Assembly (NCBI GenBank): GCA_946411695.1
Contig: CAMKEX010000001.1
Location: 1-64,000 of the forward strand
Direction: 5' to 3'
From: an uncultured Lachnospiraceae bacterium
Lineage (GTDB): Bacteria > Bacillota > Clostridia > Lachnospirales > Lachnospiraceae
Length of the DNA: 64,000 nucleotides
Position numbers and translations under genes: made by a program. Below, piece by piece: positions 11,375 through 20,800 of this stretch. The notes below the pieces were generated by a model that worked only from the letters and a program-made list of their open reading frames with translations, searched no databases and had not been told where the DNA came from. Position 1 is the first letter of the stretch; every line of letters begins with the position of its first letter.

Positions 11375-11414
11375 TCCGTCGGGACAGGCCGGTCAGCCTT
11401 AAACCTGCGCCAAA

Positions 11415-11450
11415 CCTCCGGCAGACATACCATCATATGTCTGCCGGAGG
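11415..11450. terminator. 15-bp perfect inverted repeat between the solute-binding protein gene and lepA (terminator or processing hairpin)
   Basis: CCTCCGGCAGACATA-CCATCA-TATGTCTGCCGGAGG; only a weak T-run follows. Confidence 0.6.
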
Positions 11451-11507: not shown

Positions 11508-14210
11508 TTATTCGTTTTCTTTGAGGTAAACCTGAATACGGCTCTGGATGATATCCGAAACCTCGTCCGTGGACTTCTGGCCTGCAAAGTATGCGCCGGC
11601 CTCTTCCATGATGATATTGAGGACTTCACTCTCACTGTTGACGGAGAAACTCAGGCCTTCAAGGATCTTCTCCAGGGCAGCAATATCGTCCTTTCCGAAT
11701 TCGGGCAGGCTGTCGAGGCCGTAGTCCTGTTTCTCTGTATCTCCCATATCGATCTCATCGGGAGCAATGAGGACCTCTTCTTCTGTCGAAGCGGCTTCGG
11801 CATTGAATTCTTCCACATACTTTTCGTATTCTTCGTGAGTACCGTCGAAATCCTCCTCAGGCACAGGCTTTCCGGACATATCTTCCGATTCGCTCTCGGT
11901 GTCGGAGAGGTCAACTCCATCTGTGACCACCGTCATCTGATCGCCTGTGAGACCTTCGCTCGCGTCTTCGGACTCATCCTCTTCGGAAATGATCACATCC
12001 TGCTCTTTCAGGTACTGCTCATATTCCATCTCCTGCTCTTTAAAGCTGGCAATGACATCGTCTCCCTGCTTTCTGACCGCTGTTTTGCTGATCGGAAGGC
12101 TGCTCTCCATAGCGGACTGGTAATCCGGCATCATGAAGCGGCGGATAAATTTCCAGCATCCGTCGGGATCGGAACAGCTGCTGCTGATTCCAAGCTCAAT
12201 ACTGGGAGCAACCGCAGGTCCCTTGTTATCTTCAGACGGGAAGCCGGTGACAGTCACGTTGACATCGCCGTAGAGCTGTCTGGTCATGTAATAGTAGTCA
12301 AAGGGAGTGTTGATAAACTGGATTCCCAGCAGGGCCTTGTCCGCAAGATACTGTGTGCTGTAATCATAGGCCTCTTCATCGCCGATCTGGGCGGGGAACT
12401 TGTTTGCGAACTCCAGAAGTTCCTGGAACCGTGCATTGTGGAAATCACAGGTATGCTGATCCATATCGATAAACTGGTCTCCGGAAAACTCAATGGCATA
12501 GGCCAGTACGGACTCACGGTCGATCAGTCCCAGGACGCCGGTCTCACTAAGGCCCAATCCGGCAGCAATCTCTTTTGCCCTGGCAATGGTCAGATCTTTT
12601 CCGTCGCCGATATATTTCTCCTTGCCCGCAACACCTGTAACAGTAAATCCGGGAACAAGGAAATACATTTTGCCGTCTGTCTTGAAGGCATCCACTACAT
12701 TCTGGAAGAAATCAGACTTGTTGATCTCCTTGTCGGACTCATAGCGGTCTGTCAGATCCATCATCATGCCCTTGGAGATGTAGCTGTTGACGGGCATATA
12801 GTCACTCAGAACCAGAATGTCCGGGACATTGCCGGAGACAATATCTGTATTCATCTTGGACAGGCCGGTCGAATCGGCATACTCATCCTCCGCCAGATCG
12901 TACTGGCTGTAATCCTGGATGGTGATTCTGAAATCACTGTTCTCCTTATTGAACTTAATGACCTCGCTGCGCACGTCGTAGGAAATGTAATAACCGCCCA
13001 GAGTGATCTCCTTGCGTTCCTTGACATCCTCAGGTGCCACCGGTTCCAGGATATAGGTATCAAGTTTGACTTCCGATCCATAGCCCTGGATCACAAATCT
13101 GCCGTCATCAAGTTCGATCAGGCGGCTTACTCCTTCGATATCCAGATCAGAGTTGACATAGTTGACGATCGCGCTGATCTTGTCAGATCCCAGAGCCGCC
13201 TTGTAGATGCCTGTTTCGGAGGCAATGTAGAGATTGTCCTGCTTTCCGGGATAAATACTTGCTCCCACAAGGGCAGAAGGCAGTGTGATGCTGTCCTCGA
13301 ATTTTTTGTTTCCGCTGTTGTAACGGAGGATCTTTGTGGCAGCACCGGTGTCGTCCGACATCAGGACAGTGCCGTCGCTCATTGCATAGAGAATACCTGT
13401 CAGATCATCCTCTGAGGCAACTTCGCACACAGCTTCCTTAAAGGAGCCGTCTTCTGCGGAATAGAGGTCAACACCCTCGGAAGAAACAATGAGGAGACCG
13501 TCGTCCGAAGGGACAATATTTTCAATGTAAAAATACAGTTCATTCTTGGGTGTTTTGACGTCCTTGATCCACTTTTGCTTACCGTCCGGTGTGACACAGG
13601 CGATCTGATAGGAGGTCACGGCGTCTTCACTCATGCCTTCCGGAATTTCGGCGTCCGCATCCAGATTGTTGTCCAGCATGTAATCCAGTGCTTCGGAGTT
13701 GGAGGTATTTGCGATGCCCAGGTAGAAATTCCCGTCCTTGAAAGCGGAGGCTGTGACCTCTCCGGACTCGGAATTGTCCAGCTTATAGTCCACCCGCTCA
13801 AATCCGGAGCCGTCCTCCTTGAAATGGACGAGTTCATAGCTCTCGTAGCCTTCGCCCTCATAGTTGTAATTGAATCCGTAGAGGACGCCGTTCTCCATTG
13901 CCAGAAGCTGGAGGCCTTCTGTGGCGAAATCTTCTCCCAGGGAGATCATCTCAGACTTTGCCACGCCGTCCTTACTGGTGATCTCTGGCATGGTACCTGT
14001 CGCGGAAGCTGAACCGCCCCCGCTTCCGCCGCCGGCCTGTTCTCCTTTTCCGCCGCCTCCGCAGCCCGCTGCGGAAAGAACCAGAACGGCACACAGGGCA
14101 GCTGCCGCAAAACGTCTGAATCCTTTTTTAAATCTGCTCATAGAAATATCCTTCTTTTCATAATATGCGGCAATGCCTTCCCCGTGACACTTCCGAATAC
14201 TGTTTTTCAT
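11508..14210 (-). CDS. Large extracellular solute-binding lipoprotein with an N-terminal beta-propeller-like region
   Basis: AALCAVLVLSAAGCGGGG lipobox; C-terminal half has SBP-like features (VIKFNKENSDFRITIQDYSQY, DILVLSDYMPVNSYISKGMMMDL); next to MalF/MalG-like permeases. Actual start probably MSRFKKGF. Confidence 0.75.
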   Translation of the reverse strand: MKNSIRKCHGEGIAAYYEKKDISMSRFKKGFRRFAAAALCAVLVLSAAGCGGGGKGEQAGGGSGGGSASATGTMPEITSKDGVAKSEMISLGEDFATEGLQLLAMENGVLYGFNYNYEGEGYESYELVHFKEDGSGFERVDYKLDNSESGEVTASAFKDGNFYLGIANTSNSEALDYMLDNNLDADAEIPEGMSEDAVTSYQIACVTPDGKQKWIKDVKTPKNELYFYIENIVPSDDGLLIVSSEGVDLYSAEDGSFKEAVCEVASEDDLTGILYAMSDGTVLMSDDTGAATKILRYNSGNKKFEDSITLPSALVGASIYPGKQDNLYIASETGIYKAALGSDKISAIVNYVNSDLDIEGVSRLIELDDGRFVIQGYGSEVKLDTYILEPVAPEDVKERKEITLGGYYISYDVRSEVIKFNKENSDFRITIQDYSQYDLAEDEYADSTGLSKMNTDIVSGNVPDILVLSDYMPVNSYISKGMMMDLTDRYESDKEINKSDFFQNVVDAFKTDGKMYFLVPGFTVTGVAGKEKYIGDGKDLTIARAKEIAAGLGLSETGVLGLIDRESVLAYAIEFSGDQFIDMDQHTCDFHNARFQELLEFANKFPAQIGDEEAYDYSTQYLADKALLGIQFINTPFDYYYMTRQLYGDVNVTVTGFPSEDNKGPAVAPSIELGISSSCSDPDGCWKFIRRFMMPDYQSAMESSLPISKTAVRKQGDDVIASFKEQEMEYEQYLKEQDVIISEEDESEDASEGLTGDQMTVVTDGVDLSDTESESEDMSGKPVPEEDFDGTHEEYEKYVEEFNAEAASTEEEVLIAPDEIDMGDTEKQDYGLDSLPEFGKDDIAALEKILEGLSFSVNSESEVLNIIMEEAGAYFAGQKSTDEVSDIIQSRIQVYLKENE

Positions 14211-14410
14211 CCGTCAGAAACCGCACTTGGTCAGTGCCGTCAATGACCTGATCTATTCAACTCTCCTTTTAAAATTCTACTTTGAAAAGTCTCCTTTTAA
14301 GAGCAGCCGGCAGGCAGATACTCTGCGCAGGCGCAGAAAGCGTCCGGATCCTCCGGACCGGATCCTTGCTCCTGAAGCAGCCGGCTGTCAGAGGTCTCAG
14401 CGTCCTCTTC

Positions 14411-16297
14411 CTATCTGTCTTCAGGCTCAGGAAGAGGCTCATCCTCATTCTCAGATATGTCCTCAGGCTCAGGCAGAGCCTCATCTCCATTCTCAGATGC
14501 GTCCTCAGGCTCAGGCAGAGCCTCATTCCCATTCTCAGATGCGTCCTCAGGCTCAGGCAGAGCCTCATCCTCATTCTCGGATGTGTCTGCAGGCCCGGGC
14601 AGGGTCACTGCGGCATTCTCATCGGAATCTGCTTCTGCCTTTTCTGTCAGGGCTGTTTCGGGATCATCTTCCGCCCGGCTTTTATCAGAATCCTCCACGG
14701 GCAGTCCCGTCCCGGAGCGCCTGCCGTAGATGCGCTCGGACTGACGGTCATAGATCCTGTCCTGAATATCGCGGACGACACCGCCGACTGTCCAGCTCTT
14801 GTGGGTGGCATACCAGATCACAAGCCACAGCAGGAACAGGATCGGTGAAAACCGCAGTATCAGCCACAGCAGGGCGTAAGGGATCAGGACGTCCTCCCAT
14901 GCAAGGGCCACATTTTCCCAATAGGGATAGCGGATCGGAGCGACCTGCATGCTGCGCACGCCGGGCTGCGCCAGAAGTGTCACAAGACGAAATATCTCGA
15001 AGCGGCTGGTATTGTCCACAATTGTTGCAAGTTCCATGGGAAACGGAACCTGTTCCAGACGGCTCCTGACTTTCCGGACGGCATAGTTCTGAACAGGATT
15101 CGGGATCACCACCTCATAGCAGGTCACCCTGTTTCGATTTACAACTTCTTTCTGTCCCTCTTCCTCACCGTCTCCGGCACTTCCGGAACTTCCTTTTGAA
15201 GAGCCGGAATGATTCTGACCCAGGTCCTCTCCGCCGGGGTCATCATTGAGATCTGATTCCTCCTCTTTCAGAGGTTCTGCTGTGTCTTCTCCTCCTGTGT
15301 CACCGGATCCATCGGAACCGGAATCTGATTCCAGTCCTCCGAGCGTACCGGACATAGTTCCCTTTTTTCCGGGAAGGTCTTCTGTATCCACAGACATGTA
15401 GGCGGCAGTGTGCGGCACTGCCGGATCCGCTGCAGCCTTCTCGCGGCGGACAGGCTCTGCATCAGGTGCAAAGGCATCGCCGCCGGAGCTGTCCAGGTTT
15501 TCACTGTCCTGGGTTCCGCTGCTCTCCGATGCCGCGGCAGAGGCATCCGTATACTTGCAGAGAGAGTCATAGGACATGTATACAAGATAACTTCCGATGC
15601 CGGAATCCTTGTAAAAACGTTCCCGGGGCTGACGGAAAACACCTGCGATGATATGAGGGGTTCCCCCGATCGTCACAGTCATTCCCACAATGTTAGGCGA
15701 TCCGAACAGGCGCCAGGCCGTCTGGTCATCCAGAAGGACCCTGTCCTTCATCAGGTCGTCATCGGCAAAATAATAGCCGTCGATCATTTCCAGCGGATGG
15801 AAATTGAAAAAATCTCCGCCCACACCAATCGCATTGACAGTGACTGTTTCAGTGCCGACAGTTAAGTCCGCACTGCCCATTCCGCAGTAGCTCTCCTCGA
15901 TCAGCCTTGCGCCGTTCTCAGTCTGCGTCTCGGACAGGGCAATCGCATCCGTCTGCAGATCAAGCATCAGCCCGGTGTACATTGCCTTGACCGTCTCCTC
16001 CGACGCACCGCTTCCCTCCGCGAGGAAAGCGCTGACCTGGGCATAGTTCCCGTCCTCTGACCACCGCTCCGCAGCGTTCTGATCGAGCAGCTTATCTGTC
16101 GTCCTTCTGCACACAGCGCCCAGGATCACCGAGGAGATCCAGAAAACTATGCAGAGCACAAGTCCGGCTTTCTGCCACATATGCATTTTTTTCAGTGAGC
16201 TGCGGATGATGCGGGCTGTGCCGCGGCTTCCTTTCCGGACAGCGTCACGAATTTTCTTATTCAGTTTGCTGTCAGACATCGCCGCCCCTTTTTTCAT
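14411..16297 (-). CDS. MacB periplasmic-core-domain-like membrane protein with a PEPE-repeat C-terminal tail
   Basis: VGGDFFNFHPLEMIDGYYFADDD...VLLDDQTAWRLFGSPNIVGMTVTIGG resembles the MacB_PCD fold; no ATPase motifs and no complete FtsX 3-TM block seen. Confidence 0.65.
   Translation of the reverse strand: MKKGAAMSDSKLNKKIRDAVRKGSRGTARIIRSSLKKMHMWQKAGLVLCIVFWISSVILGAVCRRTTDKLLDQNAAERWSEDGNYAQVSAFLAEGSGASEETVKAMYTGLMLDLQTDAIALSETQTENGARLIEESYCGMGSADLTVGTETVTVNAIGVGGDFFNFHPLEMIDGYYFADDDLMKDRVLLDDQTAWRLFGSPNIVGMTVTIGGTPHIIAGVFRQPRERFYKDSGIGSYLVYMSYDSLCKYTDASAAASESSGTQDSENLDSSGGDAFAPDAEPVRREKAAADPAVPHTAAYMSVDTEDLPGKKGTMSGTLGGLESDSGSDGSGDTGGEDTAEPLKEEESDLNDDPGGEDLGQNHSGSSKGSSGSAGDGEEEGQKEVVNRNRVTCYEVVIPNPVQNYAVRKVRSRLEQVPFPMELATIVDNTSRFEIFRLVTLLAQPGVRSMQVAPIRYPYWENVALAWEDVLIPYALLWLILRFSPILFLLWLVIWYATHKSWTVGGVVRDIQDRIYDRQSERIYGRRSGTGLPVEDSDKSRAEDDPETALTEKAEADSDENAAVTLPGPADTSENEDEALPEPEDASENGNEALPEPEDASENGDEALPEPEDISENEDEPLPEPEDR
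14414..14600 (-). repeat. 42-bp coding repeat (14-aa unit DASENGDEALPEPE, about 4 copies)
   Basis: SENEDEALPEPEDASENGNEALPEPEDASENGDEALPEPEDISENEDEPLPEPEDR. Confidence 0.9.
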
Positions 16298-16316
16298 GCA
16301 TCGGTATTATTCGAGT

Positions 16317-17822
16317 CTATTCCTCGGCTTCCTCTTCATCAGCCAAGCGAACCTGGTCGCCGGAGGAAACCGCCCTTGTAGATGTAGTGATTACATAAGT
16401 ATAGGCACCGATCGCTCCGCTGATCGCAGAGTTGGTATCATCCTTTGCCAGAACCTTGACGCTTTCGCGGGAAACAATATATCTGTTTCCGAGAGGGCTC
16501 TGCCTGGTCTTGAGGACCAGCACAAATGTGCCGTTCGAGTCGTTGCGGACAGCAGAATTGGGTACGACAAGATCATAGGTCTTGGAGCTCTCCGCAATCT
16601 GCAGCTGCACGTTGTCACCGGCCGACACTGCGGCGCTGTCGATCTCAAATTTCAGAAGTCTTGAATTCTGGGGGTCGCTGCTGTCTGCCGTAATCTGCCG
16701 GAGGACCGCCTTGAAATCATCGTCATATTCCCAGTAGTTCTGTGGCTGCGCCTCGTCACCTACCTGAAGCTTCTGGGCCTGCTCCTTGGTGACGGAGAAA
16801 CTGACAGTCAGCTTTTTGCCGTCGATCCGGATGATCGCAGCAGAAGAATCCGCGGCCGCTGTCTCACCGGAACTATAGGAGAGATTGATGACCGTGCCGT
16901 CCACCGGCGAGACGATGGAAGCACCGATGTTCTCATCCTCCAGCTTGGTGACCTTGGCCTGGGCTAAGGTGATCTGATTCTGAAGGCTCTTCAGCTCAAG
17001 CTCGGAACTGATGCTGTTGACCACCTTCTCCTGCAGTGACTTGGCAATTTCCAGTTCTGCCTCCGCATCGATGTTGCGTTTAGTGGCCTTCTCCAGATCT
17101 CTTTCGGCCTTGCTCTTCTTCTTTGAAGAACCGCCGTCATCACTGGACGGAGAGGGATCGACATCCTCGTCCTCTTCATCCTCTTCGTCGCCGCCCTTGA
17201 GGGTCCCTGTACTGGCCACAGTGGCGTTCCCCCCGCCGGAGGTATCCGTACTGGCCGCCAGCTTGTCCAGCGCAGCTTTGGCCGCCGAAGCCTCTTTGGT
17301 CGCGGATTCCAGCCTGCGGTTTGCGGTTCCGAGTTCTGCCTGCATCTGATCGTCAGAACGGTAGTTGCCCGCGCGCAGCCTGGTGATATCGTAGTCGCTC
17401 AGAGAACCGTCAAACAGCTTTTTGGTGTAATCCGACTGCAGGCTGGCCAGTTCCTGCCTTGCGGTCCTGAGATCCTCGGACTCATTGTCTTCCAGATAAT
17501 AAAGGACATCGCCGCGCTTGACCTTCTGGTCCACACGGACGGCAACCCTCTTGATCTGTCTGGACTGAGCCATCATGACATTGTAGGGATCGTCGACTTC
17601 CGCCGTTCCCTGTCCGCGGATCCTGGGCGAGACCTCACCCTGGGCAACCACGTGAGTCGCCACCTGCGGCAGCGTGTAGTTCATGATCGTCCTGGAAAAG
17701 AAAGTCAATGCCAGAAGAATCAGCAGAAAGACGATCGTGATATTTTTGATAATATCTTTCCGTCTCTGGGATTTTCGGAACTGCTCCAGTTCTTTGTCTT
17801 CGATTTTCAAACTTTCGGCCAT
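16317..17822 (-). CDS. HlyD/MacA-type membrane-fusion (adaptor) protein
   Basis: Single N-terminal TM, VSPRIRGQGTAEV barrel/lipoyl-like region, coiled coil, SPVDGTVINL, RNDSNGTFVLVLKTRQSPLGNRYIVSRESVKVL. Confidence 0.8.
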   Translation of the reverse strand: MAESLKIEDKELEQFRKSQRRKDIIKNITIVFLLILLALTFFSRTIMNYTLPQVATHVVAQGEVSPRIRGQGTAEVDDPYNVMMAQSRQIKRVAVRVDQKVKRGDVLYYLEDNESEDLRTARQELASLQSDYTKKLFDGSLSDYDITRLRAGNYRSDDQMQAELGTANRRLESATKEASAAKAALDKLAASTDTSGGGNATVASTGTLKGGDEEDEEDEDVDPSPSSDDGGSSKKKSKAERDLEKATKRNIDAEAELEIAKSLQEKVVNSISSELELKSLQNQITLAQAKVTKLEDENIGASIVSPVDGTVINLSYSSGETAAADSSAAIIRIDGKKLTVSFSVTKEQAQKLQVGDEAQPQNYWEYDDDFKAVLRQITADSSDPQNSRLLKFEIDSAAVSAGDNVQLQIAESSKTYDLVVPNSAVRNDSNGTFVLVLKTRQSPLGNRYIVSRESVKVLAKDDTNSAISGAIGAYTYVITTSTRAVSSGDQVRLADEEEAEE

Positions 17823-17859
17823 GATTTCCTGTTCACTCCTGCAATAAATTGATGTAAGT

Positions 17860-19218
17860 TTATTCCTTTATGCCGCCCTGATAGACGATTCCCTCCACCA
17901 GATATTCTTCTCCGTACAGGAAGACCATCATGGGAAGGACCATATAAATGACTGCGACTGCAAATGCCAGCGAGATCTCCCCCGAATTGATCTTGGAGAG
18001 AAATACGGAGAGAGGATGCAGCTGATCGTCTGAAAGAAGGATCAGCGGCTGTTCAACCATGTTCCAGTAGTCGATGAAAAGCAGGATCGCGATCGAGGCA
18101 ATGCCTCCGCGGCAGTTGGGCAGACAGATTTTCGTAAAAATCTGCCACTCTCCCGCGCCGTCGATCTCCGCAGCCTCATAAATGGACTTGGGGATCCTGC
18201 GCATATATTTGGTGAGCATGTAGACAGCGAAAGGCGAGAAGAAACCGGGAAGCCAGATCGCCCACCTCGTGTCCAGAATGTTCAGCCATTTTGATACCAG
18301 ATAGTTGGGCACCAGCGTGACCTGATAGGGCATGAGCATCAGGATGATATAGGCAAAAAAGATGATTTCCCTCACACGTCCCCTGTACCTGGCAAAGCCG
18401 TAGGAAGTCAGCGAGGCAATGGCCAGCTGAAAGACAACGATCGGAACTACATATAAAAAGGAGTTCCAGAACTTCAGCAGATATTCCGGACTGAGAATGA
18501 GGACCTTGAAATACTGTCCGAAGGACACGATGTCCGGAATAAATTTCAGGTTCACCGTACTGCTGATAAAGACGCGCACACCGTTTCTTTTCGCAAAGAT
18601 CACACCGTAATTGGCATTGATCTCGGACCTGGTCATCAGCGAATTCGTGATCGTGAGCACGATCGGCATCAGGAAGATCACCGCAAAAAAACCGATGACC
18701 GCGGTGCGGATGACCATGCGCAGGATCTCGATCCTGTTCTTTGTCCAGAATCTGCGTGCGCGGACACGGAGGTCCTTTCCGGACTCCCCTGCCTTCACTG
18801 TCAGTTTCGTCAATACGCTCGAGGCCGCACGGGAATCTTCCTCCCCGTCCCCATGGTCTTCGGCGGAAATCGTCTCTGCCTCCGCCCCGGCATCCTCTTC
18901 CGCGGAAAAAGCTTCTTCCGGTATATTGTCTGCAGCAGACTCTGCTGCCGGTCCGGCGGGATCGTCCTCTCCTGAAGACTCTGCTGCCGGCTCAGCGGAT
19001 GCGTCCTCTCCTGCCGGCTCAGCCTCCGCGTATTCATCGAAGGCATCCGTTTCAAACATATCCCCGGATTCCTCCGGGCTCAACTCTTCTTCTCTTGACA
19101 GAGGATACAGCTCCGATGAATCCGTATCATATTTTAACCGGTCTTTCACCCAGCCGGCAGCGCGTATCTTTTTAGAACGCTTCCTCTTGTCTCCGGGCAA
19201 TTTAGTCTCCCCCCTCAC
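17860..19218 (-). CDS. Carbohydrate ABC transporter permease (MalG-like) with about 150-aa acidic N-terminal extension
   Basis: EIDGAGEWQIFTKICLPNCRGGIASIAILLFIDYWN is an EAA-loop motif of type I importers. Confidence 0.88.
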   Translation of the reverse strand: MRGETKLPGDKRKRSKKIRAAGWVKDRLKYDTDSSELYPLSREEELSPEESGDMFETDAFDEYAEAEPAGEDASAEPAAESSGEDDPAGPAAESAADNIPEEAFSAEEDAGAEAETISAEDHGDGEEDSRAASSVLTKLTVKAGESGKDLRVRARRFWTKNRIEILRMVIRTAVIGFFAVIFLMPIVLTITNSLMTRSEINANYGVIFAKRNGVRVFISSTVNLKFIPDIVSFGQYFKVLILSPEYLLKFWNSFLYVVPIVVFQLAIASLTSYGFARYRGRVREIIFFAYIILMLMPYQVTLVPNYLVSKWLNILDTRWAIWLPGFFSPFAVYMLTKYMRRIPKSIYEAAEIDGAGEWQIFTKICLPNCRGGIASIAILLFIDYWNMVEQPLILLSDDQLHPLSVFLSKINSGEISLAFAVAVIYMVLPMMVFLYGEEYLVEGIVYQGGIKE

Positions 19219-20312
19219 TCAAGATCCCTAGCGAACCAGTCCTCTGTAAGGAAGAGGCTGCCGATCACGATGACCATAAAGATCGCCATCAGAACGGCCG
19301 CAGCACTGAGCTTCTGGTAATCCAGTGATTTAAAGGTGTTATTCATGAAATGCTGGAGCATATACAGTGCATCATAGGGATAATCTCCCGCCATCAGGTA
19401 GACCTCCCGGAATACCTTGAAGGAATTGATCAGGGACATAATCGTAACGAACATGATCGTAGACGAGAGATATCTGATTTTGATCAGCCAGAAAATCTGG
19501 AACTCCGAAGCACTTTCGAGACGCGCGACTTCAAGCTGATCCCTGGGGATGTTCGCCAGTCCCGACATAAACAGTATCATATTATATCCGAGGTTCTTCC
19601 ACAAAAACAGAAGAACAATGGGCACCTGGGCGTAGGCGGATTTGAGCCAGTCGATCTTGGCCCCCGACAGATGTCCCAGAAATACATTGACCAGTCCGTT
19701 GTAGTGGAAGAGGATCTGCCAGATCATGATGACCGAAGCAGTGGGCACCATCATAGGGCTGAGGAAAAAGGAACGGAAACGGCTCTTCCAGGGGAGCTTC
19801 TGTTCCATAATGACGGCCAGCAGAAGTGACAGTCCGACAGCCAGGGGCACGGCAACGATGGAAAACTTCAGGGTGTTGGCAACCGCGACACGGAATGCCT
19901 CATTTCTGAAAACCCTGCCGTAATTGGCCAGTCCGACAAATCTGTGGCGGATCGGATTGTCGATCATCGAATAATAGATGACCACAATAAAGGGCAGGAC
20001 AAAAAACAGACCGACACCGATGAGGCTGGGCGTCAGGAACATCCAGCTCACCCGGTTTTCTCGCCGCATTTTCGCGGAACGGTTGGTTCCCATAGAGGGC
20101 TTGTGAACGGGTTTCTCAGCCCGGCTTTTTCCGAGTCCGGGATGTCTGTCTTTTATGGAAGGACCTGTAGCGCTGCGAAGGCCTCTCTTTTCGGAAGGCC
20201 GGCCCGGTGACGGATCCAGTCCGTCCGCGTTTCTGCGCAGGTATCTGTTCAGTTTATCACCGATGTTCCGCAATCTGTGATCCGGACCATCTTTTCTGTT
20301 CAACATCTTCAT
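19215..20312 (-). CDS. Sugar ABC transporter permease (MalF/UgpA-like) with a basic N-terminal extension
   Basis: WMFLTPSLIGVGLFFVLPFIVVIYYSM, MMVPTASVIMIWQILF, QLEVARLESASEFQIFWLIKIRYL (EAA-like). Confidence 0.88.
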   Translation of the reverse strand: MKMLNRKDGPDHRLRNIGDKLNRYLRRNADGLDPSPGRPSEKRGLRSATGPSIKDRHPGLGKSRAEKPVHKPSMGTNRSAKMRRENRVSWMFLTPSLIGVGLFFVLPFIVVIYYSMIDNPIRHRFVGLANYGRVFRNEAFRVAVANTLKFSIVAVPLAVGLSLLLAVIMEQKLPWKSRFRSFFLSPMMVPTASVIMIWQILFHYNGLVNVFLGHLSGAKIDWLKSAYAQVPIVLLFLWKNLGYNMILFMSGLANIPRDQLEVARLESASEFQIFWLIKIRYLSSTIMFVTIMSLINSFKVFREVYLMAGDYPYDALYMLQHFMNNTFKSLDYQKLSAAAVLMAIFMVIVIGSLFLTEDWFARDLE

Positions 20313-20517
20313 GATCAGTAAACATTCCGCAGTTTTTGCTGGAACAGGACAGGTTTCTCAAGTGCACATAGTTCCGCACATATAAAACTATAATAATTCA
20401 TTTTTTCATTTTTGAATATACCTGAGCCCATCTTTTCACACAAAAAACGTAAAAAAATGGAGAAAATTCACATACAAAACACAATATGTACGCTAATTCG
20501 TACAATAAAAGACTACA

Positions 20518-20699: not shown

Positions 20700-20744
20700 A
20701 AAAAAACAGGCTCCGTCGGATCATCAGATCCGTTCGGGAGCCTG
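20700..20744 (-). terminator. Rho-independent terminator of gpmI
   Basis: Minus strand: CAGGCTCCCGAACGGATC-TGAT-GATCCGACGGAGCCTG followed by TTTTTTT. Confidence 0.85.
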
Positions 20745-20800
20745 TCTCTGTACAGCTTATTATTTCATCTTATCTGATCCCAGGCGGGTGAAAGGGGGCA

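Follow-up and report, generated by a model that had tools for sequence, protein, structure and literature searches.

The window, a 64,000-nucleotide stretch of DNA from an uncultured Lachnospiraceae bacterium, contains five consecutive minus-strand ORFs between gpmI and lepA, all of which were found where the earlier note had placed them. They encode a MalF-like permease from a distinct subfamily (F, 365 aa, 19215..20312), a MalG-like permease with a long acidic N-terminal extension (G, 452 aa, 17860..19218), an HlyD/MacA-like membrane-fusion (adaptor) protein with one N-terminal TM segment (A, 16317..17822), a MacB-periplasmic-core protein (P, 628 aa, 14411..16297) and a propeller-SBP lipoprotein, in which an N-terminal beta-propeller precedes a CbpC-like solute-binding domain (S, 11508..14210). 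F and G overlap by 4 nt, and 37 nt separate G from A and 19 nt A from P; the sole sizeable gap inside the block, of about 200-270 nt, lies between P and S. Long acidic low-complexity stretches occur in the window G, P and S and are absent from shorter relatives, and the tail of the window P carries a ENGDEALPEPED-type repeat.

The limits of the block were examined by eye. An intrinsic-terminator-like hairpin with a T run follows gpmI on the minus strand (about 20705..20750) and forms the upstream boundary. At the downstream boundary, the interval between S and lepA contains a perfect inverted repeat on the minus strand (CCTCCGGCAGACATA...TATGTCTGCCGGAGG, about 11411..11446) with a weak T tail. 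Upstream of F there is a weak minus-strand promoter-like match (9/12 positions, 20387..20416), although the region contains about as many matches of this kind as chance would give. The earlier note had raised the possibility that terminators split the block; in the window sequence, nothing between these genes looks like a convincing terminator.

Both permeases match BPD_transp_1 in a Pfam domain search (E 6.6e-15 for F and 1.3e-13 for G), and the EAA loops claimed for them are present in each (EVARLESASEFQIFWLIKIRYL in F and the canonical EAAEIDGAGEWQIFTKICLPNC in G), giving the pair of permeases that characterizes a type I ABC importer (MalFGK2/CUT1). The loops are conserved among relatives, with the Gly and Pro of the G loop present in 68 of 68 sequences; in the window F, a Ser takes the place of the usual Gly.

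A matches RND_mfp (E 2.5e-19) and also HlyD_3, and its profile matches MacA structures (E 3.1e-17), which identifies it as a MacA-type adaptor. P contains a MacB periplasmic core domain, detected with Pfam as MacB_PCD (PF12704; E 1.6e-10) and by a profile search against PDB sequences, where MacB periplasmic domains were matched (E 3.6e-9). No FtsX domain and no ATPase domain were found in P by the domain search, and no MacB-type ATPase is fused to it or encoded with it, since neither P nor the rest of the block has an ABC_tran match. P begins with a TM segment (residues 45-63) followed by the core domain, a low-complexity insert (about 255-389), a second hydrophobic segment (about 463-500) and an acidic C-terminal tail; a structure prediction (eight sequences) reached a pLDDT of 44 and was taken for secondary structure only. 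By hydropathy, the window P has two hydrophobic segments and not the four-TM topology of FtsX/MacB proteins. Predicted TM segments range from two to six across P proteins, with two for members of the window's clade and, as a rule, four to six for those more distant, and the role of P may thus differ among lineages. Given the missing ATPase and FtsX domains and the two TM segments against mostly four to six, P is likely a MacB-like permease that has been reduced to a tethered core domain, supposing that the change ran in this direction.

S had been described as a 900-aa solute-binding lipoprotein. That it is a solute-binding lipoprotein was borne out, with a lipobox at Cys50 read from the sequence, but it consists of a propeller and a CbpC-like SBP domain, and because AGAAGGA stands 5' of an ATG near 14141, translation probably starts there, giving about 877 aa. 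S alone gives a weak SBP_bac_1 match with Pfam; the S profile has CbpC of Clostridium thermocellum as its best solved structure (E 1.4e-37), along with sugar-type SBPs. In the structural model of S, the beta-propeller (residues about 80-395) is predicted with fair to good confidence and the SBP half poorly, and the Foldseek matches are generic propellers. Several related loci have SBPs of 450-520 aa, which are too short to contain a propeller.

The block is not a one-off oddity. Of 36 other genomes from its genus, which includes uncultured Lachnospiraceae as well as 'Sarcina sp. DSM 11001', 22 have a relative of P; among the genus loci that were read, most have the order gpmI-F-G-A-P-S-lepA and one has S-F-G-A-P. 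Searched with an F profile, 153 of the 392 order genomes give matches at E<=1e-50; at E<=1e-70, the number is about 91 of 392 in the order (counted by hand), 44 of 391 in the class and 9 of 399 in the phylum. Forty order-level and 20 class- or phylum-level loci were read, chosen by F score and hence biased as a sample of MalF genes. Most of these have F-G-A-P-S or S-F-G-A-P, and F-G-A-P with S on either side is kept in most relatives read, within the genus as well as in further genera, families and classes. The genes overlap or almost touch, and the median gaps are -2.5 nt (F-G), 19 nt (G-A), -4 nt (A-P) and -4 nt (P-S). In two rearranged loci, L243 (SSAPFG) and L249 (APSFG), A-P and F-G each remain paired. 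The five genes thus form a conserved operon-like module, and the kept order and the touching genes exclude that unrelated genes became neighbors by chance. The co-occurrence of importer permeases with MacA/MacB parts in one operon, which was the central claim of the earlier note, is therefore genuine, with A and P conserved beside malFG elsewhere.

In a tree of 70 module F proteins and 7 ordinary MalF proteins, a small outgroup with long branches, a 100/99 branch divides the two sets. A lies within 6 kb of F for 65 of these 70 proteins, and two of the five without a neighboring A are truncated by contig ends. Its recurrence across Clostridia suggests that the gene set represents an importer type of wide distribution. 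About a quarter of the order genomes sampled have the module, which has seemingly not been recognized as a system. In L169, L170 and L175, with which L056 is grouped, a gene for a membrane protein of 713-726 aa directly precedes F; the L170 protein has no Pfam match, and in L170 and L175 this gene stands behind an ABC ATPase gene.

No ATPase ORF is present in the block, and none of the 69 ABC_tran matches in the genome falls on the window's contig; a MalK-type ATPase is accordingly absent from both. Importers that share MsmX often have no MalK-type ATPase in their operon. However, the description of the block as 'ATPase-less' does not hold as a defining property, because sister operons carry a MalK-type ATPase directly after P. 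An ABC ATPase occupies this position in eight loci (L180, L201, L237, L238, L239, L240, L241 and L250), and in all seven that were scanned (all but L240), OB_MalK and TOBE domains score above cut-off. An ATPase gene is also found between S and F in L204 and after G in L256. The search for an orphan MsmX-like ATPase that the earlier note had proposed turned up a single OB_MalK ATPase in the window genome (369 aa, contig C138, G000:C138), with no permease adjoining, which is 54-58% identical to the ATPases of relatives' operons. A profile search detected six MalF-like loci in the window genome against this one OB_MalK ATPase, in an assembly that is 90.5% complete and from which additional ATPases could thus be missing. 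In the window genome, powering by a shared MalK/MsmX ATPase is most likely. An ATP-independent transporter is ruled out by the MalK-type ATPases of sister operons and the orphan one in the genome, and no MacB/LolD-type ATPase that might drive P was recognized after P. Further ABC ATPases in the vicinity of A-P, for instance in L249 and L170, of which only part were classified, resemble unrelated exporter ATPases.

Two known classes of ABC system resemble parts of the module. The MsmX systems of Bacillus subtilis and transporter B of C. thermocellum with Clo1313_2554 are CUT1 importers with a shared ATPase; like the window, such systems have a MalF/MalG/SBP operon without its own ATPase and an orphan MalK/MsmX ATPase elsewhere. 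To our knowledge, no adaptor or PCD protein belongs to these importers, which take up known sugars. In the MacAB-TolC and Gram-positive YknWXYZ-type exporters (type VII ABC), the adaptor is MacA/HlyD-like and the partner has a MacB periplasmic core domain, as in the window. However, the window has no MacB-type ATPase and no recognizable FtsX domain, and its A and P are in the constant company of MalF, MalG and an SBP. In the open-access literature, the C. thermocellum work and reviews of MacB were all that was found on an importer combined with HlyD/MacB components. With A and P seen as fixed partners of the importer, the module would join two ABC classes that are normally separate, importers and MacB-type exporters.

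One member of the module has already been studied as a sugar transporter. A protein from locus L253 is identical over 437 residues to CbpC (PDB 7x0o), and the locus has F, G, a split A and P; it corresponds to C. thermocellum transporter C, which comprises CbpC, MsdC1, MsdC2 and their neighbors (Clo1313_2783-2786 / Cthe_2125-2128). Judged by its F subfamily, its CbpC-like SBP, its F-G-A-P order and its MacB_PCD-containing P, transporter C is a member of the module. It differs from the window in that its SBP has no propeller, P is 473 aa long, S and F are separated by an AAA/MoxR-type ORF, and A is represented by two ORFs with an 8-nt overlap (L253 5633-6986), a possible frameshift or split gene. 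A figure legend on the sugar transporters of C. thermocellum lists an acrA gene and hypothetical-protein genes (PMC9601137). In that study, the CbpC ligand pocket was found to be blocked and the protein did not bind the sugars tested, in contradiction to an earlier binding study, and a transporter C mutant grew normally on glucose, cellobiose and Avicel (PMC9601137). A review tabulates affinities from both studies (PMC11212667). Work on a module member as a sugar transporter has thus yielded a crystal structure and a knockout but no function, and given the blocked pocket, the absence of sugar binding and the absence of a growth phenotype, S could be no transport receptor at all. If A and P are fixed partners of the importer, this is a possible reason why sugar tests with the SBP alone may have failed. 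C. thermocellum is an organism with working genetics in which the module can be tested.

These results bear on whether the module might simply be an ordinary sugar importer, in which F, G and S take up oligosaccharides with a shared MsmX ATPase and A and P are functionally separate passengers. S is homologous to sugar-type SBPs, and the sharing of MsmX-type ATPases among sugar importers has been published (PMC7658222). However, this explanation seems very unlikely in view of the retention of A beside 65 of the 70 F proteins, across many families and with the genes touching, and of the dispensability of the C. thermocellum member for growth on the sugars tested. It is also disfavored by the neighborhoods, where a general clustering of neighboring genes, with no dedicated search, found no recurrent carbohydrate-enzyme neighbor.

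Two-component genes adjoin 24 of the 63 modules read outside the genus, with a histidine kinase accompanying an OmpR-type response regulator in the two pairs that were scanned. A sensory or regulatory assembly could therefore be envisaged, in which S and an A-P head measure an extracellular ligand (a peptide antibiotic, an envelope fragment or a glycan) and signal to the two-component system, net transport being slight or absent. Bce-type transporters act in this way for their kinases. The blocked pocket of CbpC and the mutant without a growth phenotype are consistent with such a role, as is the similarity of the S propeller to the BT4663/BT4673 sensor propellers, although these matches are weak and stand among many others. 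However, ordinary transporters too are regulated by two-component systems, and no two-component system is present at the window locus or the genus copies; the conserved EAA loops and the MalK-type ATPases of sister operons favor an active transporter, leaving a sensor rather unlikely.

A few modules lie near peptide-maturation genes. In L136, the module genes continue directly into those for a CcpM radical SAM peptide maturase (TIGR04068), a protein of TIGR04066 and one with a weak BtrH_N match, forming a peptide natural-product cluster that contains an importer-type module, and TIGR04066 genes lie 6-15 kb from the module in G452 and G480. L256, in which S, F, G and a MalK-like ATPase adjoin a C39-peptidase ABC exporter, adds to the impression that A and P might be a MacAB-like exporter, perhaps of modified peptides, with F, G and S serving retrieval or immunity. 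Such an export machine is nonetheless improbable: P has no ATPase and, in the window lineage, no extra MacB-like TM segments, and every scanned operon ATPase after P is MalK-type and not MacB-type. Moreover, peptide-maturation genes were found near three modules while co-occurrence at the genome level is near chance. RiPP transport as a general rule is ruled out by these three co-locations and by the absence of the module from most TIGR04066 genomes. L254 (G452) has an SBP gene on each side of the module and three TIGR04066 genes within about 25 kb.

The best model, and one that we consider reasonably probable, is a type I ABC importer with a shared MalK/MsmX ATPase and an A-P assembly on its outer face. 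Complex formation and import direction are inferred, and uptake would be ATP-driven. The lipid-tethered S would capture the ligand and hand it over to the F-G channel, and a MalK/MsmX-type ATPase, which in the window genome would be the orphan MsmX-like protein on C138, would dock on the F and G EAA loops and drive uptake. A and the ATPase-less, membrane-anchored P may build a MacA-MacB-like assembly above F-G, which could dock S, guide a bulky ligand or report transport to the cell. Coupling of the adaptor and the PCD protein to an import permease, as the earlier note had suggested, is the best remaining explanation for their association. As to the ligand, a cell-envelope or peptide-like compound is slightly favored over ordinary sugars, but this is a guess. 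The chances are about even that the module represents an unnamed class of ABC importer with both importer and exporter ancestry, in which an ATPase-stripped, MacA/MacB-derived extracytoplasmic complex would serve a MalFG-type import channel as its obligate device for docking or gating.

Within the genus, a second S paralogue without permeases was found in 12 of the 23 genomes that have the module and in none of the 14 that lack it (Fisher p 7e-4, not corrected for phylogeny and assembly incompleteness). In the window genome, this propeller-SBP paralogue is encoded at G000:C32:22515-24350 (L121), and its equivalents (L122-L132) are likewise confined to module-bearing genomes of the genus. These paralogues often adjoin two long nuclease-like genes, which by eye are addAB-like, or a uracil-permease-like gene.
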